Shown piece by piece: positions 22,879 to 38,114 of a stretch of DNA of 60,411 nt. The notes beneath the pieces are model-generated. The model saw only the letters and a list, made by a program, of their open reading frames with translations, made no database searches and was not told the DNA's origin. The DNA lies in NCBI GenBank assembly GCA_903929765.1, contig CAIYVX010000079.1:1-60411 (forward strand), in the 5' to 3' direction. The stretch is from an uncultured Planctomycetia bacterium (GTDB lineage Bacteria > Planctomycetota > Phycisphaerae > FEN-1346 > JAACEH01). Each line of letters starts with the position of its first letter. Positions within the stretch are counted from its first letter, which is position 1. The position numbers were made by a program, and so were the translations under genes.

Positions 22879-22951
22879 GGGGGCATAGCTCAGTTGGGAG
22901 AGCGTCTGGATGGCATCCAGAAGGTCAGGGGTTCAACTCCCCTTGCCTCCA
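22879..22951 (+). tRNA. tRNA-Ala (anticodon GGC)
   Basis: 73 bases. The acceptor stem GGGGGCA pairs with TGCCTCC and includes the G3-U70 pair that identifies alanine tRNA. The anticodon loop ATGGCAT (GGC at 22912-22914) lies between TCTGG and CCAGA. The T-arm is AGGGGTTCAACTCCCCT. CCA is not fully encoded. Its 3' end is the apparent integration site of the downstream element. Confidence 0.95.
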
Positions 22952-24469
22952 CTCGACCAGGTGCGTCCCGCGGGGATCATTCTCCGCGGGACGCTTTCTT
23001 TGTACCGGTAGCCCCGCGGCGTCCAGTTCCATCGGCCCCACGAACTGCTCAAACAGCAGGTGCAACCGCTCCGGCGTCGGGTTGCGGATTCCTTCCTGCA
23101 CCTGGGTCAGTGCCAGGCGAATCGTATCCTCCAGCATGTCGGCGTCCGTGGTGTCCGTCGCTATGTCGGCCAGTTCCTTCTCTTTGGCGTCCTTCGATTC
23201 CTGGAGCTTCGTGAGCGCTCCCGCGATGGCCCGCTTCGCAGTGGCCTCAATGTCCGGGTCGGCTAAGAGCCGCGTCGTTGCCCCAATCTCCCGTTCGGCC
23301 TCGGCGATTTCCCGGCGGAGTTCGATCACTCGGTTCTTGCTGCGATTAAGCCGCTTCCGGAGTTCGCCCACCGCGGCCTGAACGATGGCCTCCGTGTCGC
23401 CAACCATTTCCCAAAACGTAGCGAACAGGTCGTCAACGACTGATTTCTCAAGATGGCTGCCATCATTACTACAACCCAAGCCGGCCGTTGCGATTCGGTG
23501 GCCGCAGTAGAGGAAAGTCCGGTCCTTACTCCGGCGAGCATATAGAACGTGGCCGCACTCAGGGCAGAATACGAGGCCGGTGAGTGCCCGCTGAATCCCG
23601 CCACACTTCGGTCTCTCACCGGAAGTCCGCGTGGCAATCCGCTCCCTGACCCGCTTGAAGTCTGCGTCGGAGATGAGCCTCAAGGACTCGTCCTGGAAAA
23701 CGGTTTGTGCCTCGGGCGCAGTCCAGGAGACAACTCGCCGCCCCGTCCGGCGATTGAGGCGGTAGTGCTTCTTGCCAAACGTCAGACGGCCCGTGTAGAC
23801 CGGGTTAACCAAAATGCTCCTGACGCTGGTGAAGGTCCAGACCGGATTCTTTCGAGGCCGGATGCCCCGCCCATGAAGTTCGCGAGTCAGCCGCTTGAGG
23901 CCTGCTCCCTCCAGGTAGCGTCGGAACATCCAGCGGACGTTCTCTGCTTCATCAGGGTTGATAATGAGCCGCTTGGACTCGTCGAGGGCGATGACGCGGG
24001 AGTAACCATAGGGCGGCTTGCCGCCCACCCACCGGCCCTGCTCAGCCCGCTTGACCATGCCCTTGAGAGCGCGCTCGGCCAAGACACGGGAATAGTCCTC
24101 GGCGACGGCCAACTCGATGTTGCGGACCAGTGGGTGGTCGGTCCCGTTGGCGACACGAACTTCGACTCCGAAGTCTTGCATCTGCTCCATGACGACCGTG
24201 GCTTGGCCGAGATTCCGGGCCAACCGGTCCCATTTGAACAGCCACAGCGTTCCAACGCGACCTTTCTCGGCGTCGTCCAAAAGGCGGAGGAGTTCCGCCC
24301 GCTGGGCCGTGGCCCGGCCCGTGCAGGCCCGGTCAATGTAGGGGACGAGCTTCCGGCCCGCTGCCCGCTCACACTCCTCGACCTGGACCTCCACGCTGGT
24401 GTTGCCGTCCTGCCCGTGGCTGCTGTACCGGGCGTAAACGGCGTCGATCTTACTGGTTGCGGTTGCCAT
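22925..24469 (-). CDS. Large serine recombinase (integrase)
   Basis: 514 residues. The resolvase domain has YARYSSHGQ with catalytic S16 and R14, and the FKWDRLARN arginines. The recombinase domain covers about 165-290 (GGKPPYGYSRV, then NPVYTGRLTFGKKHY). The zinc ribbon is at about 300-340 (LVFCPECGHVLYARR, then YCGH). A coiled coil (LRKRLNRSKNRVIELRREIAEAE) ends the family core. The last residues WRQGELNP are encoded antisense within the T-arm and acceptor of tRNA-Ala, an overlap of 27 bases. It should integrate and excise the element. The start overlaps the small gene at 24450-24758. Confidence 0.92.
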   Translation of the reverse strand: MATATSKIDAVYARYSSHGQDGNTSVEVQVEECERAAGRKLVPYIDRACTGRATAQRAELLRLLDDAEKGRVGTLWLFKWDRLARNLGQATVVMEQMQDFGVEVRVANGTDHPLVRNIELAVAEDYSRVLAERALKGMVKRAEQGRWVGGKPPYGYSRVIALDESKRLIINPDEAENVRWMFRRYLEGAGLKRLTRELHGRGIRPRKNPVWTFTSVRSILVNPVYTGRLTFGKKHYRLNRRTGRRVVSWTAPEAQTVFQDESLRLISDADFKRVRERIATRTSGERPKCGGIQRALTGLVFCPECGHVLYARRSKDRTFLYCGHRIATAGLGCSNDGSHLEKSVVDDLFATFWEMVGDTEAIVQAAVGELRKRLNRSKNRVIELRREIAEAEREIGATTRLLADPDIEATAKRAIAGALTKLQESKDAKEKELADIATDTTDADMLEDTIRLALTQVQEGIRNPTPERLHLLFEQFVGPMELDAAGLPVQRKRPAENDPRGTHLVEWRQGELNP

Positions 24470-24832: not shown

Positions 24833-24863
24833 TGTCCCCCTATTAGTTTCATACCCCGTGGCG
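24833..24863 (-). promoter_or_regulatory. 31-bp shared motif, left copy
   Basis: Read on the minus strand, it begins CGCCACGGGGTATG and ends AATAGGGGGACA. It is identical over 31 bases to 30174-30204 on the plus strand. It lies 75 bases ahead of the start of the recombinase operon. Both copies point toward the genes they precede. It is a probable promoter or operator. The rest of the 24759-25092 gap holds only a doubtful small frame. Confidence 0.6.
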
Positions 24864-25013
24864 GCTCAAAATGCGGGAAAATTTTGACGCGTGGTCGCCC
24901 CTGCCTTCCTTTTCGAGCTGGACTGTTTCCTCTTGCATGAATTCGGCAAAAACGGACAATGCCTGCATCGCGGCTTCGCGAGCCACTGTCCGTGGCCGCC
25001 CATGCTTCGGCAC
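24849..25013 (-). CDS. Possible small gene, maybe a broken longer one
   Basis: 54 codons from GTG at 25013 to TGA at 24849-24851 inside the 31-bp motif. The reading is hydrophilic and protein-like: VPKHGRPRTVAREA, then LSVFAEFMQEETVQLEKEGR, then SKFSRILSRHGV. The same frame upstream reads LRVVVGGKVEAVDVV from a TTG at 25061 and is then cut by one TAA (25014-25016). Together they look like one gene of about 70 residues with a nonsense codon. There is no convincing ribosome-binding site. It could be chance. Confidence 0.25.
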   Translation of the reverse strand: MPKHGRPRTVAREAAMQALSVFAEFMQEETVQLEKEGRGDHASKFSRILSRHGV

Positions 25014-25092: not shown

Positions 25093-26967
25093 GTGACACA
25101 GCCAAGCTTCCATCGCATACGACGACTGGCCGTTGTGGGCGGATTCATGGATGGGGCCGAGTGTGAATTCGCCCCAGGGCTTAACTGCATCATCGGTGGG
25201 CGCGGGACCGGCAAAACCACGCTTCTGGAGTTCATCCGTTACGCGCTCGGCCTGGTTCGAGAGGATGGTACCGGGCGCAGGAATATTCCAGGGCTGATCG
25301 AGCACAATCTCGGCGGCGGTCGCATCCGCCTGACCATCGAGACCAAAGAGGGCTTGACCTACATCGTGAGTCGTTCGGCGGGGGAAGAACCGGTCGTGCT
25401 GGACGCCAAGGGCATTCCGACCGACATCACCCTTTCATCCGGCGGACTTTTCGGCACCGACATCTACAGCCAGAATGAAGTGGAGGGAATTGCTGACGAC
25501 CCCCTGTCTCAGCTAGCCCTGATCGACAACTTCGAGTCCGAGCAGGTTCACAGAGACAACCACGAGATTGAACGGACCGCTTCCGCGCTGAAGTCTAACG
25601 CCCACGAGTGCATCGAAGCCCTCAAGGTCATCGGCGGCTTGGCGGGCGAATTGGGCACGCTGCCGAGCCTGGAGGCCAGGCTCAAGGAGTTCAAGGCCAC
25701 CACCGGACAAGACGCCGCCACCATCAACAAGGCGCATGAGCACAAGGCCCAACGGGACCGCGAGAAACGGGCCATCGAAGAAGTCCAGAGTTCCCTGGAG
25801 GACTATGCCGGCGAAACCAAGGCCTTGTGCGGCCGGATCGGGCAGGACATCGCCACGGTCCTCGACCTGGATGAGACGGGTGCACCAAACGCCGCGGCGG
25901 TCGCGGCCTTGCGCAACGTCCTGGTGGACTGCGGACGGGACGTGGATCGTCTTCTGGAAGAGGCGAAGATGCGCGTGCGCAAAGGAGCGGGAGTCTTTTC
26001 GGCAGAGGCCGACAAGCTGATCGCCACCCACAAGACGCAGGAGGTCGCTTTCGAGAGCGTGATGGTGAAGCACAAGGAGGCCCTGGGCCAATCCGCCGAA
26101 CGGAACACCCTGGATAAGCGGCGCAATGAGATTCTGGCCAACAAGAGAGTCCACGACCAGAAGCGCAAGGATCTGGACAAGCTGCTGAAAGACCGGCAGG
26201 CCCTTCTGGTCCGGTTGTCCGAGTTGCGGAACCACCGCTTTGCCCTAAGGAAAGACGTTGCCGACCGCATCAATGCGCAGGTCTCGCCGCAGATTCGGGT
26301 CCGCGTGGAGCAGTATGGAAACACCCAGGAATTCCGAGACCTGCTGGAAACGAGCCTCAGCCGCGCGGGTGTCCAGCACCGCGTGGTGGCCGCCAAGATC
26401 GCGGCCCGCATGTCGCCGGCAGATTTCACCGATGCGATCAATCAGGGGGATGCGGACGCCCTGGTCGACCGGAGCGAGATCAACCCCGAGCAGGCGCGGA
26501 AGATCATTGCGGCCTTGTCCGGCAGTCCCGAACTATACGATTTCCAGACCGTGGAACTCATCGACCTGCCCTGTATCGAACTGCTCGATGGTAGCGAATA
26601 CAAAAATTCGCTCACGCTGTCCACCGGCCAGAAATGTACCTCGATTCTGCCCATCCTGCTCCTGGACAGCGAGAACCCGTTGTTGATCGATCAGCCCGAG
26701 GACAACCTGGACAACCGGTTCGTGTTCACGACCGTGGTCCAACGCATCCGCGAGGTGAAGAAGAAACGGCAGTTGATTTTCATCACGCACAACCCCAACA
26801 TCCCCGTGCTGGGGGATGCCGACAAAGTCTTCGTGCTGAACTCGTCGGGCAAAAGTGGGGTCATCGAGAAGGAAGGCCCGGTTGACGTGTGCCAGCAACA
26901 AATTGTGACTCTGCTAGAAGGTGGCGAAGAGGCGTTCAAGGAACGCCGCAGGAGGTACAACTATTGA
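25093..26967 (+). CDS. SMC/RecF-like ABC-type ATPase of cargo operon
   Basis: 624 residues. Walker A is IIGGRGTGKTT (35-43). A long coiled coil runs at about 160-420. The signature is LSTGQKCTSILPILLL (from 509), Walker B is LLIDQPEDNLDN (D533), and the switch His is in FITHNPN (H566). The DQPEDNLDN form is typical of stand-alone ATPases found in conflict or defence loci, not of SbcC. The GTG at 25093 has GGAGAG six bases ahead; an ATG ten codons earlier is possible. It is the first gene of a coupled three-gene operon with a kinase and a regulator, so it may sense DNA or a cell state and pass the signal on. Confidence 0.8.
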   Translation: MTQPSFHRIRRLAVVGGFMDGAECEFAPGLNCIIGGRGTGKTTLLEFIRYALGLVREDGTGRRNIPGLIEHNLGGGRIRLTIETKEGLTYIVSRSAGEEPVVLDAKGIPTDITLSSGGLFGTDIYSQNEVEGIADDPLSQLALIDNFESEQVHRDNHEIERTASALKSNAHECIEALKVIGGLAGELGTLPSLEARLKEFKATTGQDAATINKAHEHKAQRDREKRAIEEVQSSLEDYAGETKALCGRIGQDIATVLDLDETGAPNAAAVAALRNVLVDCGRDVDRLLEEAKMRVRKGAGVFSAEADKLIATHKTQEVAFESVMVKHKEALGQSAERNTLDKRRNEILANKRVHDQKRKDLDKLLKDRQALLVRLSELRNHRFALRKDVADRINAQVSPQIRVRVEQYGNTQEFRDLLETSLSRAGVQHRVVAAKIAARMSPADFTDAINQGDADALVDRSEINPEQARKIIAALSGSPELYDFQTVELIDLPCIELLDGSEYKNSLTLSTGQKCTSILPILLLDSENPLLIDQPEDNLDNRFVFTTVVQRIREVKKKRQLIFITHNPNIPVLGDADKVFVLNSSGKSGVIEKEGPVDVCQQQIVTLLEGGEEAFKERRRRYNY

Positions 26968-28124
26968 CCTCCGCTAGTGGGCGCAGTTCCACCGAAAAGT
27001 TTCTATCGCGGCTTGGCCAGAAAGACGGCGTGTCTTTGGAAGAAAAACGCCGCCACCTGAAGGTTCTCCGCAACGCCTTCAAACACGGCGAGTCTTCGGT
27101 GTTGTCCCCAGCCAACATGCCGGCAGTCCTCCTTCTGGCCGAGGACGTTGACTGGCAGGTCCGCCAGGACGTCGCGGAGCTTTTGCTTTATGCGCCTGAG
27201 GAACATTTCTCGCAACTGGCCGCCCGCCTCATGGCCGATCCGAACGGGTACGTGCGCCGTTCTGCTGAAAGAAGCCGCGAGCGCCGCCAAAAGGCCCAAC
27301 TCGAGGCCCGGCAGGCCAGTCGCGGGATCGAAGAAGTAACCAAGCAATATGAGAGCCTGACGCGACAGGTCGGCGGTGAGATGGCGGACAAGGCCATCAG
27401 CCTGGGAGAGGCGCGCTTTGAGTTGCTGGCAGACGAACTGCTTCACGATCTGCTAACCATGCTTACGCCTCTCAAGGCCCAAGTGCGCGGTCTGACGAGC
27501 GGCCTGGCGAAAGTTGACCGCGATCTGCTGCAGATGGCCGTCAAGTCTTCTGAGGACTTGGATTTCCTTGAGCAATACATTCGGGCGGTAGTGGCCTACT
27601 CAAAGGCCCTCCCGGTCGAGCGGCATCCGGAATGGGTTCAGGAAGTGGTCCGGCAAGCTGGAGAACAGGTGCATCGCAACCTGGCGGAACGCGGGGTCGA
27701 TCTGAATCCGGTCGCGCTTGACGATGGAGAGGTTGCGGGGACACGGGTGCCGATGTGCCGGGAGCTCATCGTCCAGGCGCTGGCCAACATCGTGACGAAT
27801 GCCTACGAGTCCCTGTTGAACGAAGAAGGCCGGCTTGATGAGGGTCGGATTGGAATTACGACCCGCACTGCGGACGGCCATGTAGCCATTGAGGTGCGTG
27901 ACAACGGCTGCGGAATGTCCCCGGACGAACTGACGGCGTTGCTGGCTTTCCTGCCAGGCCGGAAGAATGCGAAGAAGAAGCGGAGCATGGGACTGGGGCT
28001 GCTCACCGCGAAGAAGAACGTCGAAGCCCACTATGGAACGCTCCGGGTGGAAAGCGAACTCGGCAAAGGCACGGCGGTTACCATTACGCTGCCCTTGGCC
28101 GCGCAGGATGCTGAAAATGGCTAG
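26964..28124 (+). CDS. Soluble histidine kinase with HEAT-like N-terminal part
   Basis: 386 residues from TTG at 26964, which overlaps the ATPase stop (TTGA) and has AGGAGG eight bases ahead. Residues about 20-105 are HEAT/armadillo-like helices (MPAVLLLAEDVDWQVRQDVAELLLYAPEEHF, then LMADPNGYVRRSAERS). The phospho-acceptor helix has H161 in LLHDLLTMLTPL. The HATPase boxes are N (QALANIVTNAYESLLN), G1 (VRDNGCGMSPDEL) and G2 (MGLGLLTAKK). There are no membrane segments, so the input is cytoplasmic, perhaps the ATPase partner. The output is presumably the next gene. Confidence 0.85.
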   Translation: MTSASGRSSTEKFLSRLGQKDGVSLEEKRRHLKVLRNAFKHGESSVLSPANMPAVLLLAEDVDWQVRQDVAELLLYAPEEHFSQLAARLMADPNGYVRRSAERSRERRQKAQLEARQASRGIEEVTKQYESLTRQVGGEMADKAISLGEARFELLADELLHDLLTMLTPLKAQVRGLTSGLAKVDRDLLQMAVKSSEDLDFLEQYIRAVVAYSKALPVERHPEWVQEVVRQAGEQVHRNLAERGVDLNPVALDDGEVAGTRVPMCRELIVQALANIVTNAYESLLNEEGRLDEGRIGITTRTADGHVAIEVRDNGCGMSPDELTALLAFLPGRKNAKKKRSMGLGLLTAKKNVEAHYGTLRVESELGKGTAVTITLPLAAQDAENG

Positions 28125-28836
28125 GGCCTTGATTGTGGAAGACCAGGACGACATTATGCCCGCCATAGAAGAGGCTCTGGCAGGGCGCGGAGATTCCTTT
28201 GCCCGGGCCAAGAGCCTCGAAGAGGCCCAGGCCATGTTTCAAGCCGAACAATTTGCCTATGTCCTGCTCGACCTGAAGATACCGGCGCGGATGGGCGGGG
28301 CTTTTCCAGACAAGATTTACGGAATCGAAACGCTGAAGAGAATTCGGGCGACCGCCGGCAAAGAGCATACGCCGGTTATCGCCATGACCAGTTACCACAG
28401 TGACGGCTGGGGGATCTCCACGGAATTGCACGCCTTGGGGGTGAGTGCCTGCATCTCGAAGCCCTTTGATGAAAGACGCCCCCTGATGAGGGTAATTGAG
28501 GAGGTTCTCGCGGCCAAGCCTGGCTCTCCGACCAAGGGAGTGAAGGTTGACGGTAAATCCGGCAGTGGTTTCGACCAGGCCAAGCAAGCGCAGCTTGTTC
28601 GGGCGACCAATCAAGTCCTCGGCCCAGACATCCCGTTCCACAAAGGCACCTTGTCCAAGGCGATACAGGCGGGAGAGATCAAGTACAACGGAAAATCCGG
28701 GCGGGCCTGCCGAGTGCAGGTCGAGAGTTTCCTAGCCTGGATTGTGAAGAAGGAACACCTCCAGAACGACGAGGTCACCCAGATCCGCAATGCGATTATT
28801 GGCGAGATCAACGAGGAAACCAAGAAGCGCAACTAG
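28117..28836 (+). CDS. Response regulator with uncharacterised C-terminal domain
   Basis: 239 residues. The receiver domain has the acidic pair at E8-D12 (IVEDQDD), phospho-acceptor D52 (VLLDLKIPAR), T91 (IAMTSYH) and K115 (ISKPFD). The roughly 110-residue C-terminal part (QLVRATNQVLGPDIPFHKGTLSKAIQAGEIKYNGKSGRACRVQVESFLAWI) looks like a helix-turn-helix or excisionase-type DNA-binding unit, but I cannot place it in a family. The ATG at 28117 follows AGGA and overlaps the kinase gene by eight bases. The operon ends with a terminator at 28896. Confidence 0.8.
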   Translation: MARALIVEDQDDIMPAIEEALAGRGDSFARAKSLEEAQAMFQAEQFAYVLLDLKIPARMGGAFPDKIYGIETLKRIRATAGKEHTPVIAMTSYHSDGWGISTELHALGVSACISKPFDERRPLMRVIEEVLAAKPGSPTKGVKVDGKSGSGFDQAKQAQLVRATNQVLGPDIPFHKGTLSKAIQAGEIKYNGKSGRACRVQVESFLAWIVKKEHLQNDEVTQIRNAIIGEINEETKKRN

Positions 28837-28895
28837 CGGTTTGAAGTTGCGCCGCAGGAAACTTTGAAAAATTTTCAGCGCTGACGTGCCGGGCC

Positions 28896-28931
28896 AAGCG
28901 GCGGAAGACGAAAATCTTCCGCTGCTTTTTT
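28896..28931 (+). terminator. Intrinsic terminator of ATPase-kinase-regulator operon
   Basis: AAGCGGCGGAAGA (28896-28908) pairs fully with TCTTCCGCTGCTT (28915-28927), with one wobble. The loop is CGAAAA and the T run is 28926-28931. It closes the three-gene operon as a self-contained unit. Confidence 0.85.
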
Positions 28932-29040
28932 GTTGCGCTTTTGTTGCGCCAGGAAATCGTCGGCGAGAATCCGACCCAGACAACGAGTCACGCGGACGGG
29001 TATGGTGCTCGCCCCCGATGGCTCGGGGAAGGATTCCGAC

Positions 29041-29370
29041 ATGGTTAAAGCAGTTAGTTTGGGAGCGCTGGAACCGGACAACCGGCGTCTGGTCGAAATG
29101 ATGCAGACCGTCAATTTCGGCCGCATCGAGGGTCTCGTCATCAGGGACGGACAACCGGTCTTCGCGCCACGTCCGCGAGTGGTCCGCGAAATCAAGTTCG
29201 GCGCCGAGAACGGTCCGCGGCCGGAGGTCGCCAAGGTCGACTTTGCCCTGAAGACCGAAGTTCGGGAGCTCTTTGCCCAGATGGAGGCCCTGGGGGACGG
29301 CGTCATCAGCAGCCTTGAGGTCAAACACGGGTTGCCGTTCAGGATGACCGTCGAGGAGGTGGTCGCCTGA
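29041..29370 (+). CDS. Small conserved-looking protein of unknown function
   Basis: 109 residues. The ATG at 29041 follows GGAAGGA. It starts MVKAVSLGALEPDNRRLVEMMQTVNFGRIEGLVIRDGQP, then a basic PRVVREIKFG segment, and ends in a helical part (LKTEVRELFAQMEALGDGVISSLEVKHGLPFRMTVEE). It looks globular and complete. I recall similar small proteins in planctomycete genomes but know no function. It lies alone between two terminators. Confidence 0.55.
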   Translation: MVKAVSLGALEPDNRRLVEMMQTVNFGRIEGLVIRDGQPVFAPRPRVVREIKFGAENGPRPEVAKVDFALKTEVRELFAQMEALGDGVISSLEVKHGLPFRMTVEEVVA

Positions 29371-29559: not shown

Positions 29560-30156
29560 ATGGAGACGAGCAAGAAGACGTGCGAAATCAGCGAGTACGC
29601 GATGGAGTTCATTCACCACAAGTCCCGAGAACTGGTCGGCATGCCAGGGTTCGCCGGGCAGGACGTTGAGGACATCGAGCAGGAACTGGTCCTCGACCTG
29701 CTGGAACGGTTGCCCAAGTTCGACCCGGCCAAGGCGACCAACAGCACTTTTGTGCAACGCTTGGTGGAACGGAAGATCAGCAACATGGTTCGTGACGCCA
29801 AGCGGGAGCGGCGCGACCCGGAACGCGAGGATTGCTCGCTGGACGATGAGGTCGAGGACGAGGACGGCGACTTCGTCCCCCTGGGCGAGACGATCCCCGA
29901 GGACGGGCACGACCTGCGCTTGGGCCGCCAAACGCGCTTGGCGGCCGACCGTGACGAATTGGCGTTGGACGTAGCGGCAGTGCTTGCGGAACTGCCGGAG
30001 GAACTGCGGGCCGCGGCCGAGGCCCTGTCGACCATGACCATCGCCGAGGCGGTTCGCAAGCTGGGCATTCCGCGTTGGAAGTTCGACGAAGTCTACCTGC
30101 CGCGGCTTCGCGAGGCCTTCACGGCCAAGGGCCTTGGCGAATATTTTTCGCAGTAG
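29560..30156 (+). CDS. Phage-type sigma-factor-like protein
   Basis: 198 residues. The N-terminal part resembles sigma region 2 (GFAGQDVEDIEQELVLDLLERLPKFDPAKATNSTFVQRLVERKISNMVRDAKRERRDP). An acidic linker follows (DDEVEDEDGDF), then a region-4-like end (LAELPEELRAAAEALSTMTIAEAVRKLGIPRWKFDEVYLPRLREAF). It could direct host RNA polymerase to element promoters. The 31-bp motif that precedes two element operons lies 18 bases after its stop and is an obvious candidate target. Its translation may be controlled by the hairpin at 29532-29553. Confidence 0.7.
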   Translation: METSKKTCEISEYAMEFIHHKSRELVGMPGFAGQDVEDIEQELVLDLLERLPKFDPAKATNSTFVQRLVERKISNMVRDAKRERRDPEREDCSLDDEVEDEDGDFVPLGETIPEDGHDLRLGRQTRLAADRDELALDVAAVLAELPEELRAAAEALSTMTIAEAVRKLGIPRWKFDEVYLPRLREAFTAKGLGEYFSQ

Positions 30157-30173
30157 TTTCCTATATTTCGCCG

Positions 30174-30204
30174 CGCCACGGGGTATGAAACTAATAGGGG
30201 GACA
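30174..30204 (+). promoter_or_regulatory. 31-bp shared motif, right copy
   Basis: Identical to 24863-24833 read on the minus strand. It lies 36 bases ahead of the RecE-like gene, the first gene of the phage recombination operon. Outside the 31 bases the two copies diverge, which argues for a kept functional site and against a recent duplication of the region. Confidence 0.6.
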
Positions 30205-30239: not shown

Positions 30240-31046
30240 ATGAATCTGAACCTCGACCTCAACATCCTGACCTGCGAACCGGCCGAGCAGTACCATGTCC
30301 AGGCCGGCGAGCACCTGTCGAGCCACCAGCTCATCGCCTTCATGAAGTCGCCGTGGCTGTATTTCAAGAAGACGACGGGGTTGGTGGAGGACAAGGACTC
30401 GCCGGTCTACCTTATTGGCCGCGCCGCTCACACCCGGATTCTCGAGGGGCGGGACGCCTACGAGCGCCAGTTCGCCCTGGGCGGACCGATCAACCCGAAA
30501 ACCGGCCAACCCTTCGGGGCCAACACGAAGGCCTTCGCCGAGTGGGCCGAGACCCAGGGCAAACCGGTCCTGAGCCACGACCAGGTTGCCCTGGTCGAGC
30601 AGATGGCCGCCGGCGTGGCCATGAACGACGCGGCGGTCGACCTGCTGCTCTACGGCCGGGCCGAGGGCGTGGTCCGGGCCGAGTATTGCGGCACGCCCTG
30701 TCAGATCCGCATTGATTGGACCCATCCGTACCGTGGCATTGTCGACCTCAAAACCTGTGACGAACTGGACTGGTTCGAGGCCGACGCCCGGCGTTATCGC
30801 TATCTGACCCAACTGGCCTTCTACCAGTCGGTCTTGGCCGTCGTTATCTCCAAACACGTGCCCGTCCATATCGTCGCCGTCGAAAAACGCGAACCTTTCC
30901 GCTGTGGCGTCTGGCGTGTCGGCGACGACGCCCTGGCCGTAGCCCGCCAGGAAAACGAGGCCGCCATCCGGCGGTTGCTGACTTGCCGGCAGAAAGATTT
31001 CTGGCCGACCGGCTACGAGGAGGTGCGCCTTCTGGACGTGACTTAA
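30240..31046 (+). CDS. RecE/exonuclease VIII-like PD-(D/E)XK nuclease
   Basis: 268 residues. Features of phage RecE-type C-terminal nucleases are the N-terminal LSSHQLIAFMKSPWLYFKKTTGLVED, GRAAHTRILEG (H64), RIDWTHPYRGIVDLKTC (D159, D169, K171) and the distal YLTQLAFYQSVL. It would resect double-stranded ends for recombination with the next gene's ATPase. AGGAG precedes the ATG. It is the first gene after the right copy of the 31-bp motif. Confidence 0.78.
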   Translation: MNLNLDLNILTCEPAEQYHVQAGEHLSSHQLIAFMKSPWLYFKKTTGLVEDKDSPVYLIGRAAHTRILEGRDAYERQFALGGPINPKTGQPFGANTKAFAEWAETQGKPVLSHDQVALVEQMAAGVAMNDAAVDLLLYGRAEGVVRAEYCGTPCQIRIDWTHPYRGIVDLKTCDELDWFEADARRYRYLTQLAFYQSVLAVVISKHVPVHIVAVEKREPFRCGVWRVGDDALAVARQENEAAIRRLLTCRQKDFWPTGYEEVRLLDVT

Positions 31047-31140: not shown

Positions 31141-31197
31141 CATTCCTAACCAATGAACCGGGACTTAAACGAGAACACCAAACACAAGGAGCCGACC

Positions 31198-32001
31198 ATG
31201 AGCATGTTGCAGCAGATTCGCACCGGCCGCCACCCCTCGCCACCGCGCTTCGTCATCTACGGCACCGAGGGCATCGGCAAATCCACCACGGCCGCCCAGG
31301 CGCCCAAGCCGATCTTCATCCCGACCGAAGATGGTCTCGACCAGATCGACTGCGCCTCGTTCCCGCTGTCGACCAGCTTCGCGGACGTCGAGGCGGCTCT
31401 CCAGTCGCTGATCCACGAACCGCACGACTTCGAAACGGTCGTCATCGACTCTCTCGATTGGCTGGAGCGGCTGGTCTGGGACGCCCTGTGCGAACAGTAC
31501 GGCGTGGCCAGCATCGAAAAGGTCGACGGAGGCTACGCCCGCGGCTACACCCACGCCCTGACGCCCTGGCGGAAGGTGCTCGACGGCCTGAACGTGCTCC
31601 GCAACCAGCGCGGCATGTGCGTCATCCTCCTGGCCCACGCCAAAGTTGAGAAGTTCGAAGACCCCGAGCAGGCGGCCTACGACCGCTATTCGCCGCGGTT
31701 GCATAAGCACGCCACGGCCCTCGTGACCGAGTGGGCCGACGGCGTGTTGTTCGCCACCCGCAAGATCATCACCAAAACCGAGGACACCGGCTTCAACCGC
31801 GAGCGGACCATCGCCTCGGGCCTGGGCAAAGACGGCGGCGAGCGCATCCTGCGCTGCGTCGGCAGCCCGGCCTGCGTGGCCAAGAATCGTTACGACCTGC
31901 CGGCGGAACTGCCCCTGTCATGGGCGGCGCTGATGCAGGCTATGGCCGGGGCGCCGCCAGTCGCCCCGGCCAGCAATCCCCCGGCTCCGGTCACGGCGTG
32001 A
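31198..32001 (+). CDS. Phage RecA-like ATPase (Sak4-type)
   Basis: 267 residues. Walker A is FVIYGTEGIGKSTTA (22-31), Walker B is FETVVIDSLDWLERLVWD, and the sensor region is RGMCVILLAHAKVEKFEDP. The protein matches the single-domain RecA-like ATPases of phages that promote annealing or strand exchange with an SSB-like partner. The C-terminal tail is proline/alanine-rich. AAGGAG precedes the ATG; an upstream frame start at 31153 lacks a site. Neighbours (nuclease before, DUF669 after) fit a recombination operon. Confidence 0.8.
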   Translation: MSMLQQIRTGRHPSPPRFVIYGTEGIGKSTTAAQAPKPIFIPTEDGLDQIDCASFPLSTSFADVEAALQSLIHEPHDFETVVIDSLDWLERLVWDALCEQYGVASIEKVDGGYARGYTHALTPWRKVLDGLNVLRNQRGMCVILLAHAKVEKFEDPEQAAYDRYSPRLHKHATALVTEWADGVLFATRKIITKTEDTGFNRERTIASGLGKDGGERILRCVGSPACVAKNRYDLPAELPLSWAALMQAMAGAPPVAPASNPPAPVTA

Positions 32002-32051: not shown

Positions 32052-32510
32052 ATGGCCAATCTGAATGGATTCAATGCTCACGAAGTGGAACCCAGCACCA
32101 GTTTCGAACCGCTGCCGGCCGCCAAGTACCTGGCGGCCATCACCGGCACCGAGATGAAGCCGACCAAGGACGGCACCGGCAGCTACCTCAACCTCGAGTT
32201 CACCATCCTCGAGGGCCAATTCAAGGACCGCAAGGTCTGGGACCGGCTGTGCCTGAATCACCCCAACGCCCAGACGGTGAAGATCGCCCGCGGCAACCTA
32301 TCGGCTGTCTGCCGGGCCGTCGGCGTGATGCAGCCCCGCGACTCGGTCGAGCTGCACAACATCCCACTGCTGATCACCGTGAAGTTGAAGAAGCGCGAGG
32401 ACAACGGCGAACTGGCCAACGAGGTCAAGGGCTACGCCAAAAAGGAAACGGCGGCCGGCAAGCCGCAGCAGGCGGCGCCGACCGACAACACGCCGCCCTG
32501 GAAACGATAG
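32052..32510 (+). CDS. DUF669-type phage protein (probable SSB-like)
   Basis: 152 residues. The pattern is that of DUF669: NAHEVEPSTSFEPLPAAKYLAAITGTEMKPTKDGTGSYLNLEFTILEGQFKDRKVWDRLCLNHPNAQTVKIARGNLSAVCRAVG. An acidic-poor tail ends PPWKR. Members usually follow the phage RecA-like ATPase and are thought to bind single-stranded DNA. GGAG precedes the ATG. Confidence 0.8.
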   Translation: MANLNGFNAHEVEPSTSFEPLPAAKYLAAITGTEMKPTKDGTGSYLNLEFTILEGQFKDRKVWDRLCLNHPNAQTVKIARGNLSAVCRAVGVMQPRDSVELHNIPLLITVKLKKREDNGELANEVKGYAKKETAAGKPQQAAPTDNTPPWKR

Positions 32511-34480: not shown

Positions 34481-35250
34481 TGGCGAAGGCCCACAGCAAA
34501 ACCATGCTGGCCTTCGGCGACGCCCACGTGCCACACCAGAACCGGCGGTCGGTGAAGATTCTCTGCCAGGTGGCCGAGCGCCTCCGGCCCGATTTGATCG
34601 TCTGCCTCGGCGACCTCCTGGACTGCGGCCAGTTCTCCGTGCATCCGCCGACCCACGGCATGCCGGAGACGGATTACCACGAGGATCTGCGCGAGGCCAA
34701 CGCTCTGCTGGATCGGCTCCAGGCCGCCTGTGGTCGGCTGGTGTTGGTCGAGGGCAACCATGAATATCGTCTCGACCGCTGGGCTGCGGCGACGGCTGAG
34801 GGGCGCGGGGCTTACTCGATGCTCGCACCACGAATCCAACTGGCCAAGGGCCGCACCAGGTTCACCTACGTGCGCTACGGTTCTGTTGACGGGCGGTATC
34901 CGCATTACGCCGTGAATTCGCGGATTATTGCGGTGCATGGCTGGTCTTATGCCCGGCACGCCACGAAAAACCACCTCCAGATCAGCCAGGGCAAGAGCGT
35001 CATCCACGGTCACACGCACCGGGCCGACGCCAGCATCATTCAAAACATCTGGTCGCCGGGGCGGGTGATCCAGGCCCGCTCGGCCGGGTGCCTCTGTAAT
35101 CCGATTCCGCTCTACGGCACGGGTCGGCCCGTCGAGTGGATCAACGCCTTCATCCTTGGCTACCTGGGTCGGCGCAGCGACACGCTCTACACCATTCCGA
35201 TCATGGACAACCGCTGCATCCTGCCCGACGGCGCGGAGGTGTCGGCATGA
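34480..35250 (+). CDS. Metallophosphoesterase
   Basis: 256 residues. All calcineurin-type motifs are seen: GDAHVPH (D14, H16), CLGDLLD, EGNHEYR, VHGW and IHGHTHR. It should be an active metal-dependent phosphoesterase or nuclease, as often found among phage replication genes. The start ATG overlaps the previous stop (TAATG), and the end overlaps the helicase fragment (ATGA). Confidence 0.82.
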   Translation: MAKAHSKTMLAFGDAHVPHQNRRSVKILCQVAERLRPDLIVCLGDLLDCGQFSVHPPTHGMPETDYHEDLREANALLDRLQAACGRLVLVEGNHEYRLDRWAAATAEGRGAYSMLAPRIQLAKGRTRFTYVRYGSVDGRYPHYAVNSRIIAVHGWSYARHATKNHLQISQGKSVIHGHTHRADASIIQNIWSPGRVIQARSAGCLCNPIPLYGTGRPVEWINAFILGYLGRRSDTLYTIPIMDNRCILPDGAEVSA

Positions 35251-35654
35251 CGGAGTCGCCGGCAATCACCTTGCGGCCCTATCAACACGAGGCCGTGGCC
35301 GCGGTTTATGACCACCTGCGCCGTCGGGATACTCATCCATGCATCGTCATTCCAACAGCAGGGGGAAAAACGGCCGTCATGGCCACGATCTGCCGTGACG
35401 TGGTCGAGAAGTGGGACGGCCGCGTGCTGATTCTGGCCCACGTGAAGGAATTGCTCGAACAAGCCGTGGACAAGCTGCATGCCCTGGCACCGGACCTGCG
35501 GATGAAAATCGGCGTCTACTCGGCGGGCCTCAAGAGCCGGGACCGCGACCACCCGATCATCGTCGCCGGCATTCAGTCGGTCTGCCAGCGCGCCACCGCC
35601 TTTTCCGCTGGTTCCACAACTCCCCCGCCGGCCGCGCCGCCTGCGAATTCCTAG
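35247..35654 (+). pseudogene. Superfamily 2 helicase, N-terminal fragment
   Basis: 135 codons. The frame has ITLRPYQHEAVAAVYDHL (Q-motif-like), Walker A CIVIPTAGGKTAVMATI, motif Ia LILAHVKELLEQAVDKL and PIIVAGIQSVCQRA. Then homology stops and the end is low-complexity (STTPPPAAPPANS). The DEAH box and the whole C-terminal RecA domain are missing. The junction near 35590-35600 abuts sequence leading into the tape-measure gene, which points to a large internal deletion. Confidence 0.75.
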
Positions 35655-35663
35655 GACCGAGCC

Positions 35664-38114
35664 ATGCCGAACCGAGCGCTGACTATCGCGTTGCGGCTGG
35701 ACACTTCGGACCACGACGCCGGAATCCAGCGGAGCATCGAGGGCGAACGCAACTACGCCCGCGAGCAGGCCCGCGTCAACGCCGAAATGAAGAACGCCTT
35801 CGACCGGCTCGCCGAGACTCGCTCGCGGGCGATGTCGGGCGAAGGGCTGATGGGCCGGGGCCTGATCAACTGGAAGGATCAGGAAACTCGGCTTGCTGAA
35901 TTCGAGGCGGCGCAAGCCCGCGTGGGCCGCGCCGTCGACGCCCAGGACGCCGCGGTCAGCCGCCAGCGGGTCGGCCGGGCGCTCAATGAGTACCAGGCCC
36001 GCGTCGCGTTGGAAGAGCGGTACTTCGCCGCGACACACAGCCTGCAGGAAGTGGCCCTCCGCAACCTCCAGAACTATTATGCCCGCCTCCGCGCCCAGCA
36101 CGCCGGCAACGCCCAGATGCTAGCCCAGATCGACCGGACCTACGCCGCCGAAGCTGCGGCCCTCGGCGGTCCGCTGGGCGCAGCCAGGGGCGGCCACGTC
36201 GGGGAGCGTGGCCTGGCCCGCGTGGGCCGCGGCGTGGGTGCGGCCGTCGGCGCTTCCGGATTGGGCGGCGAAGCTGGTTCTCTGCTCGGCATGGCGGCTA
36301 TGCCCGGCATGGCACCGTTGGCCCTGGCGGCCGGCGCCGGCATCGCCATCGGCGCGGCGGTGGAAAAAGTGGCGGCCCACACGGTGCAGATGCGGGCCAT
36401 TCAGCAAGGCTATAACCAGGACTTGCGCGAATCGGCCAAATGGTGGGAGGAAATCGGCGGCCGGCAAAATACGGCGCTGGGTCGCGCCGCCGGCAGCCGG
36501 GCGGCCGAACTCCGGGAAAAAGCCACCCAGTTGGGCGAAGAACAGACCGCTCGGGAAACCAAGCGCGACTCCGGGGTCGGCGGTGTCTTTAACGCCTTCT
36601 GGGATATGGGCGACCAGTTGTTGAACTGGAACAGTCCGGGAGACACGGAACGCAACCAGGAGGAGCGGTCCGAGCGTGAGCGGCGGGGCAAACTTCAGAA
36701 CGAGGCACGGCGGCTCGACACCATCCGTGACGAGGGACTCGCCCGTCAGCAGGCCCGCGACGTGGCCGATTCCCGGCGGCGGGCGGCCGAGTCGGGCACG
36801 GCGGCAATGGCCAACAACCCGGAGCGGCAACGGCAGGAGTTGGCCGACCGGACGGCCCGCGAGGCGGAGGAGCTGCGCCGCAAACAGGAAGATGAGCGGC
36901 TGGCACTCGAGGCGAGCAACAAGGAATCGGTCAAAAACCACACGATTACCAAGGCTGTGGCCGACCAGCGCTGGGCACAATTGGCCGCGACGCATGCGGA
37001 GGAACGGACCAGTGCCGTGGCCGTGGCGGCCAATCGACAAAAGGCCCTGGAGCGCGATCTGGCGGAGGAGCGGATTCGGGACGAAGACCGCACGGCGGAT
37101 TTGAGGGTCGTCGCCGGCAAACGCGGTTATGCCAAAGAGGAGGCGGCGCTCAAAGAGCATTATCGCCAGATGTTCGCGGAAGCCATCCGAAACCAAAACT
37201 GGAAAAAGGCGGCGGAGATCGCCACTCAGGGCACCTATGCCTTTCAGGCGCAGGCGGCCGAGCGCGACGAGGAAGCCCGCAAGGAGCACGTGGCCCTCTC
37301 GATCCGCGAGGCCCAGGCCACGGGGCAGTATGCCGAGGCGATGAAGCAGGCCCGCGCCGAGGAAGCCCGCCAGGCCCACGAAAAATATAACGACCCCGCT
37401 CTCGAAAAGCAGCACATGGACGATTACGACAAAGTCCAGGCGGCGGAGCGGGCCGAAGGTGTCCGCAAGACGCACGTCGACAATCAGATCAAGCTCATGG
37501 AGGCGACGGGCCATTACCGGACGGCGCTCAACCTGGCCCGCGAGGAACAGGAACGGCAGTACCGGGCCTTGGGCTATACCGACGACCAGGTCAAACAGTT
37601 GATGGCCGACTGGGACAAGCTCAAACAGGCGCAGGCCGACCATTCCGGTTTGGAGGCGATCAAGGGCCTCAACATTGAACTCGAGCGCCAGATGGGCCAC
37701 ATCTCGGCCCTCGAGGCGGAGCGGCAACGGTTGCACCAGGCCAACCCGCTGGCCAGCCAGAGTGTCATCGACGAGCAGGCCCAGAAGTCCGAGGAGCTGC
37801 GGCTGCGCAAGCAGTTCGAGTCGCCGGCCCAGAAGTTTCAGAAGTTTTCCGGAGACGTCACTGCGGCCATGCGGCCGGGACCGCACGGTGAGCCGCCCAT
37901 TGTCAGCAAGGGCCGGGCCGAGATCGAGATTCGTAACGAGCTGCGGAGCCTGATGGGCCAGAGCGGCGAAGGCAAGATGAGCAACATGAGCTCGCGCTGG
38001 TCGGAAATCCAGAACGCCGTCAACGAGCCGGCCCAGTTGACGGCCGAAGAGCAGCGGGCCTTCTGGTCCGAACTGACGGCTCTGTGGAAAGCCGGAATCA
38101 AGATAAGGATGTAA
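35664..38114 (+). CDS. Phage tail tape-measure-like protein
   Basis: 816 residues, mostly helical coiled coil (LADRTAREAEELRRKQEDERLALEASNKE and similar). A glycine/alanine hydrophobic segment lies at about 195-250 (LLGMAAMPGMAPLALAAGAGIAIGAAVEKV). The start MPNRALTIALRLDTSDHDAGIQRSIEGE is typical of tape-measure N-termini. It is the largest gene of the tail block. The TAA stop overlaps the next ATG (TAATG). Confidence 0.68.
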   Translation: MPNRALTIALRLDTSDHDAGIQRSIEGERNYAREQARVNAEMKNAFDRLAETRSRAMSGEGLMGRGLINWKDQETRLAEFEAAQARVGRAVDAQDAAVSRQRVGRALNEYQARVALEERYFAATHSLQEVALRNLQNYYARLRAQHAGNAQMLAQIDRTYAAEAAALGGPLGAARGGHVGERGLARVGRGVGAAVGASGLGGEAGSLLGMAAMPGMAPLALAAGAGIAIGAAVEKVAAHTVQMRAIQQGYNQDLRESAKWWEEIGGRQNTALGRAAGSRAAELREKATQLGEEQTARETKRDSGVGGVFNAFWDMGDQLLNWNSPGDTERNQEERSERERRGKLQNEARRLDTIRDEGLARQQARDVADSRRRAAESGTAAMANNPERQRQELADRTAREAEELRRKQEDERLALEASNKESVKNHTITKAVADQRWAQLAATHAEERTSAVAVAANRQKALERDLAEERIRDEDRTADLRVVAGKRGYAKEEAALKEHYRQMFAEAIRNQNWKKAAEIATQGTYAFQAQAAERDEEARKEHVALSIREAQATGQYAEAMKQARAEEARQAHEKYNDPALEKQHMDDYDKVQAAERAEGVRKTHVDNQIKLMEATGHYRTALNLAREEQERQYRALGYTDDQVKQLMADWDKLKQAQADHSGLEAIKGLNIELERQMGHISALEAERQRLHQANPLASQSVIDEQAQKSEELRLRKQFESPAQKFQKFSGDVTAAMRPGPHGEPPIVSKGRAEIEIRNELRSLMGQSGEGKMSNMSSRWSEIQNAVNEPAQLTAEEQRAFWSELTALWKAGIKIRM

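Follow-up and report, generated by a model that had tools for sequence, protein, structure and literature searches.

What does a self-contained operon of an ATPase, a histidine kinase and a response regulator do inside a phage-like element? The question is raised by positions 25,093 to 28,931 of a 60,411-nucleotide contig from an uncultured Planctomycetia bacterium (CAIYVX010000079.1; this whole stretch is called the window), where a preliminary description made from the letters of the DNA had proposed that the three genes are defence cargo. We find that these genes, hereafter the trio, form a three-gene module that is conserved, mobile and associated with defence, and whose catalytic sites are intact. 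In our preferred reading, to which we give a probability of about one half, the trio is a mobile module for defence-type sensing: the ATPase would detect invading DNA or replication, and a His-Asp relay would signal to a DNA-binding regulator. The operon consists of the following features:

25093..26967, + strand: TrlF/Ppl-type ABC/SMC-like ATPase without a PHP domain, 624 amino acids (aa), GTG start, NF045780 match
26964..28124, + strand: soluble histidine kinase, 386 aa, with a HEAT-like N-terminus, a dimerisation and histidine phosphotransfer (DHp) region carrying H161, and HATPase_c; TTG start
28117..28836, + strand: response regulator, 239 aa, a receiver followed by a divergent, weakly HTH_17-like C-terminal domain; ATG start
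28896..28927, + strand: rho-independent terminator with a 13-pair stem, a 6-nucleotide (nt) loop and a T-rich tail

The three overlapping genes lie where the preliminary description had placed them, with overlaps of 4 nt between ATPase and kinase and 8 nt between kinase and regulator, and Pfam recognises AAA_23/SMC_N, HATPase_c and Response_reg in their products. The terminator had been called perfect; its 13-bp stem is indeed strong and is followed by TTTTGTT, but one of the pairs is G-T, and the terminator scan as a whole gave no excess (5 found, 5.8 in shuffled sequence).

The ATPase had been described as SMC/RecF-like on account of a DQPEDNLDN Walker B motif. This motif is present together with GGRGTGKTT, LSTGQK and THNP, and the Walker A, the LSTGQ signature, D533/E536 of Walker B and the THN of the His-loop are invariant in 27 trio-ATPase relatives. 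The protein can further be placed in the TrlF/Ppl group as a PHP-less member: NCBIfam TrlF (NF045780) matches residues 8-623 with E 3.9e-92, using profile positions 294-944 only. It lies outside the TrlF family proper, scoring 310.5 bits against a cut-off of 350 and lacking the N-terminal PHP domain, which is absent from the ATPase in all trio copies. It is not a Ppl (NF042955) either, with 115 bits against a cut-off of 1000 and a best stretch restricted to the C-terminal part, where the subdomain matches Ppl with E 2e-33 (NCBIfam) and 4e-28 (PADLOC). A profile of the 27 trio ATPases matched Rad50 and AriA in the PDB (AriA 2e-4), PADLOC returned weak matches to AriA (1.6e-9) and LmuB (5e-13), and no nuclease family matched in the Pfam, NCBIfam and PADLOC searches.

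Searching 149 genomes of the phylum for TrlF yielded 11 full-length PHP-type proteins and seven PHP-less ones. An adjacent kinase and regulator accompany all seven PHP-less ATPases and none of the 11 PHP-type proteins, for which flanks of about 1.5 kb or less were inspected (Fisher p 3e-5). Where TrlF/Ppl relatives carry a fused PHP enzyme domain, the trio has a two-component relay.

Both relay partners have the residues expected of them. The kinase contains HATPase_c (Pfam E 4e-20), and H161, N279, G317, G343 and G345, which supply the histidine and the N and G boxes of a two-component kinase, are invariant in 28 kinases. Its AlphaFold2 model (mean predicted local distance difference test, pLDDT, 86.9) shows short paired N-terminal helices, long DHp helices and an HATPase domain, and is closest in fold to ZraS and HK853. 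The HEAT-like helices proposed earlier are supported by these paired helices and by D61/W64/V66/R67 and D92/V97, invariant or nearly so among the 28 relatives, but the Pfam HEAT match stays under threshold (E 0.11). In the regulator, Response_reg matches with E 1e-12 (Pfam), and D8, D52, T90 and K114 (L010 numbering) are invariant in 32 regulators, as in a genuine receiver; H161 of the kinase and D52 of the regulator had thus been correctly assigned. The C-terminal domain, already noted as odd, is divergent: it yields a weak HTH_17 match (E 0.014) and none to the C-terminus of any relative. Output domains differ among loci, the window's being unlike the others. In most relatives the regulator is an OmpR-like transcription factor, and a typical one (the L010 model, pLDDT 89.8) has two winged helices after the receiver, the first of them OmpR-like; the OmpR-type winged helix found in relatives such as L010 is missing from the window regulator.

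The trio recurs as a unit. A census of 294 genomes of the phylum and of named genome contigs, searched with kinase matches, showed a patchy distribution (about 12 of the 294, with 1-3 copies each). The host genome alone carries two further complete trios (contigs C10 and C78), making three copies, and about 30 further loci keep the ATPase-kinase-regulator order in Planctomycetota, viral contigs and one myxobacterium (Plesiocystis pacifica, L051, the one locus outside the phylum). All strong full-length kinase matches lie in this order on one strand, except at contig ends and in decayed copies; weaker kinase matches without the HEAT region sit outside trios. The three proteins do recur together, the outcome of the neighbourhood check proposed in the preliminary description, and the objection that the kinase might always occur without the ATPase fails, since full-length HEAT-type kinases stand alone only in those exceptional cases. 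Among viral contigs, a single-sequence scan found no trio and a 28-row profile found eight trio loci (one pair identical); INPHARED phage and PLSDB plasmid records held no close relatives of the trio. In the ATPase tree, phage-borne and island-borne copies are intermixed, and the window ATPase is sister to that of L113 (97/95).

Adjacent genes of the trio overlap at 39 of 52 junctions (median spacing -4 nt), and the protein distances are correlated for ATPase and kinase (Mantel r 0.88), ATPase and regulator (0.83) and kinase and regulator (0.74), none of 2000 permutations doing as well. The three proteins co-evolve, the ATPase and kinase most tightly. Because the HEAT region is conserved and co-evolution is tightest for this pair, we suggest that kinase and ATPase touch each other, rather than being linked by plain expression control. 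An apparent natural ATPase-kinase fusion at L065 was rejected: it lacks the C-terminal part of the ATPase and the N-terminus of the kinase, and is an in-frame deletion.

We then compared 144 neighbours within 6 kb of trios with 136 genes from elsewhere in trio-carrying genomes, using PADLOC at E <=1e-10. Among the matches listed, at least 11 of the 144 neighbours were clear defence proteins and none was named among the 136 controls (Fisher p 0.0008), the neighbour counts being lower bounds. Again among the matches listed, families near trios included type I and type III restriction, BrxL, DarT, DarG, DruA, SoFic and AbiEi, and those of control genes were mainly generic kinases. The trio shows the enrichment in defence islands or cargo slots by which anti-phage defence systems are recognised, a check that the preliminary description had proposed for defence islands. 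Chromosomal trios lie in restriction, BREX, DarTG, TIR and ABC-3C-like settings, among them:

L036: HsdR-HsdM overlapping the ATPase start
L035: HsdM-like methylase, and a DUF1883-TIR gene overlapping the regulator stop
L057: BrxL neighbour
L062: type III restriction, and Nmad3 overlapping the regulator stop
L009: GmrSD neighbour
L048: DarTG neighbour
L120: ISP-type and DUF3732 genes

With trios beside restriction and BREX genes and, as described below, in a phage defence slot, the possibility that they occupy housekeeping settings only is discarded. At L010:2521-3372, a class III nucleotide cyclase gene, possibly Pycsar-like, lies immediately downstream of a trio.

In the window, the trio sits in an element, as had been proposed, with a serine integrase on one side and a phage early operon on the other:

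22879..22952, + strand: tRNA-Ala (ggc), whose last 28 nt overlap the end of the integrase open reading frame (ORF)
22925..24469, - strand: large serine recombinase (phage integrase) bordering the cargo slot (phrog_95, E 1.1e-79)
24833..24880, + strand: left arm of a 48-nt inverted repeat
29002..29370, + strand: small conserved phage gene g122, the right slot border in many relatives
29560..30156, + strand: phage sigma-factor-like protein (phrog_1740, E 3.8e-12)
30157..30204, - strand: right arm of this 48-nt inverted repeat, immediately ahead of the exonuclease gene
30240..31046, + strand: exonuclease VIII (RecE)-like protein (phrog_412, E 2.9e-37)
31153..32001, + strand: Sak4-like annealing protein (phrog_124, E 2.8e-46)
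32052..32510, + strand: phage single-stranded DNA-binding protein (SSB; phrog_6015, E 1e-43)
35247..35654, + strand: truncated phage helicase, 135 aa as against about 560-580 aa in relatives

We looked for a duplication of the tRNA end as an att site and found none. The prophage is defective: only 135 aa of the helicase are left, and the next gene is an unrelated one of 816 aa that was not seen in relatives (35247-38111). The trio is fully open though the prophage is broken, which is consistent with the host keeping cargo of use to it; the decay may simply be recent.

Two early genes of the window retrieve about 50 contigs, mostly of one phage lineage. Its early block is conserved (small gene, sigma factor, exonuclease, Sak4, SSB, deoxyribosyltransferase and phosphoesterase), with g122 homologues immediately before the sigma factor in L143, L160, L166, L173, L176 and L178, and several viral-contig trios are flanked by an integrase and early replication genes. 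What lies between integrase and early block varies across the lineage; this slot holds:

trio: window, L113, L167
RT_VI and a helix-turn-helix (HTH) gene: L142
HmaB/HmaC: L143
QatC: L145
HerA: L160
type I restriction (HsdM) and PDC-S18: L173
XRE and ImmA: L163, L171

The idea of defence cargo is in this way strengthened: the trio is self-contained and recurs, defence genes are enriched around it, and its phage slot is shared with known defence systems. The same slot is occupied in six contigs by a recurrent pair of usually overlapping genes (about 400 aa and 290-420 aa; L163:3040-5206, L171:3055-5218, L146:6751-9121, L158:3429-5881, L160:3224-5243, L175:3044-5496). In L163, neither gene had a PADLOC match and the first had no Pfam match; the pair is a candidate undescribed two-gene defence module. 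At L173:1753-2753, the slot border carries a CI-like XRE-S24 repressor and, transcribed away from it, a 72-aa HTH_17 protein; an HTH_17-like domain also ends the window regulator.

The 48-nt inverted repeat (core TGTCCCCCTATTAGTTTCATACCCCG) encloses the trio, the small gene and the sigma factor, and faces the integrase and exonuclease operons. Its arms may be promoters or operators, or else element ends. The 26-nt core recurs in the genome in two further copies only, with two mismatches each, at G000 C32 and C93; the C93 copy lies in another prophage-like region, and neither is near a trio.

How would such a module work? In the preferred sensing reading, the PHP-less TrlF/Ppl-type ATPase, the likely sensor, would load onto invading or abnormally replicating DNA. 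The soluble kinase would read the ATP-bound state of the ATPase through its HEAT-like N-terminus, autophosphorylate at H161 and pass the phosphate to D52 of the regulator, which would then bind DNA and alter the transcription of its own operon as well as that of nearby defence or prophage genes. The window module is cargo of the now defective prophage. In this account we infer the trigger, the contact between ATPase and kinase, the transfer of phosphate, the regulator's targets on DNA and the effect on phages. Possible, though short of an even chance, is a novel form of anti-phage immunity that works by switching genes in place of direct killing: a DNA-sensing SMC-like ATPase would directly drive a soluble HEAT-type kinase, and the phosphorylated regulator would activate adjacent or distant defence genes, giving a portable alarm for different effectors.

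Several observations weigh against the sensing reading. The window regulator's DNA-binding domain is weakly supported by its HTH_17 match, and upstream of 28 operons no shared regulator-binding repeats were found beyond chance except at L118, where five CCGGTATC half-sites form an operator-like cluster between divergent phage early genes and the trio (L118:5802-5994; 0 of 200 shuffles). In some relatives the slot also holds lysogeny regulators (XRE-S24 in L173, XRE-ImmA in L163). Moreover, phage-borne trios have no other obvious effector beside them, so that either the ATPase may act by itself or the regulator may control genes at other places. The effector could be the TrlF-type ATPase, and it is conceivable, if rather unlikely, that this protein both senses and acts directly on invading DNA while the kinase-regulator pair merely controls operon expression: TrlF/Ppl ATPases belong to single-protein systems annotated as defence (NF042955, PADLOC Ppl), and the relatives' regulators are predicted DNA-binding proteins. 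Yet PHP, the only evident enzymatic effector part of TrlF/Ppl, is gone and no nuclease family takes its place in the matches, and the conserved HEAT region and tight kinase-ATPase co-evolution suggest protein contact.

Phage trios occupy the place of an immunity region, with the integrase on one side and the early operon on the other, which raises the prospect of a lysogeny or induction switch that replaces a CI-type repressor, its regulator acting on phage promoters. The window regulator is the only HTH-type protein seen in that region besides the sigma factor, outward-facing 48-nt repeats enclose it, the relatives' slot regulators include HTH_17 as well as XRE-S24 or XRE-ImmA proteins, and the L118 cluster lies beside a trio. 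We nevertheless judge a switch improbable: many trios reside in restriction or BREX islands outside phages, L145 and L160 have plain defence cargo and no repressor in the slot and so control lysogeny from another place, the XRE-type regulator that immediately precedes the L044 trio would be redundant, and the repeat core occurs without a nearby trio. An ordinary two-component system for DNA damage or replication stress, riding on mobile DNA by chance, would account for the Rad50-like ATPase, the conventional kinase core and the three copies in one genome; the patchy distribution, the intermixing of phage- and island-borne copies, the repeated restriction-system neighbours and the shared defence slot make this highly improbable.

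Against known systems, the trio combines familiar parts. Its ATPase is homologous over its whole length to TrlF, but is PHP-less, scores below the cut-off and always comes with kinase and regulator, as PHP-TrlF never does in the 149 genomes. With Ppl, a PHP and SMC-like ATPase protein (NCBIfam 'anti-phage protein'; PADLOC Ppl), it shares the C-terminal ATPase subdomain, and differs in lacking the PHP effector domain and having signalling partners. SMC-like ATPase sensors in defence generally act via an attached or partner enzyme; PARIS AriA and LmuB-type systems, whose SMC/ABC-type ATPases weakly match that of the trio, work with a toxin or nuclease where the trio has a phosphorelay. Detocs likewise has His-Asp signalling genes in a defence setting and ends in a metabolic effector; the trio instead is headed by an SMC-like ATPase, and its relatives' regulators end in DNA-binding domains. 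The PADLOC scan gave no match to a model named Detocs, the presence of such a model in the library being unconfirmed. The kinase shares its core with ZraS/HK853-type kinases, but is soluble with HEAT-like repeats, and the regulator shares the receiver, and in relatives the OmpR-like winged helix, with OmpR/PhoB regulators, from which it differs at the C-terminus, with an additional winged helix in relatives and another kind of domain in the window. Literature and family-library searches returned no description of the trio. A paper on BREX diversity (PMC12839542) mentions a Schlafen-RNase in fusion with a minimal histidine kinase and winged helix-turn-helix; that system is distinct. Each part is of a known kind; what is new, as far as testable, is how they are combined and the exchange of PHP for a phosphorelay. 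Across a phylum, and in one case beyond, the relay replaces the absent enzyme domain, in a slot shared with known or candidate defence systems. If the sensing reading is true, two-component signalling would be linked to nucleic-acid sensing in immunity, in a small, genetically tractable set of three genes and a handful of obvious point mutants.

Finally, we examined the leaders of trios. They align within close groups, folding was not convincingly better than in shuffles, and an Rfam scan upstream of trios gave nothing relevant. An 84-nt element shared by L009 and L010 was rejected as a conserved RNA; it is the end of a tiny ORF and its changes fall at third positions. This ORF, ending VNRRGFSRGSWQSRFPNAANV (L009:8106-8183 and L010:8069-8167), occurs nowhere else in the genome, and its two copies, about 93% identical in DNA, lie at equal distance upstream of the two trios.

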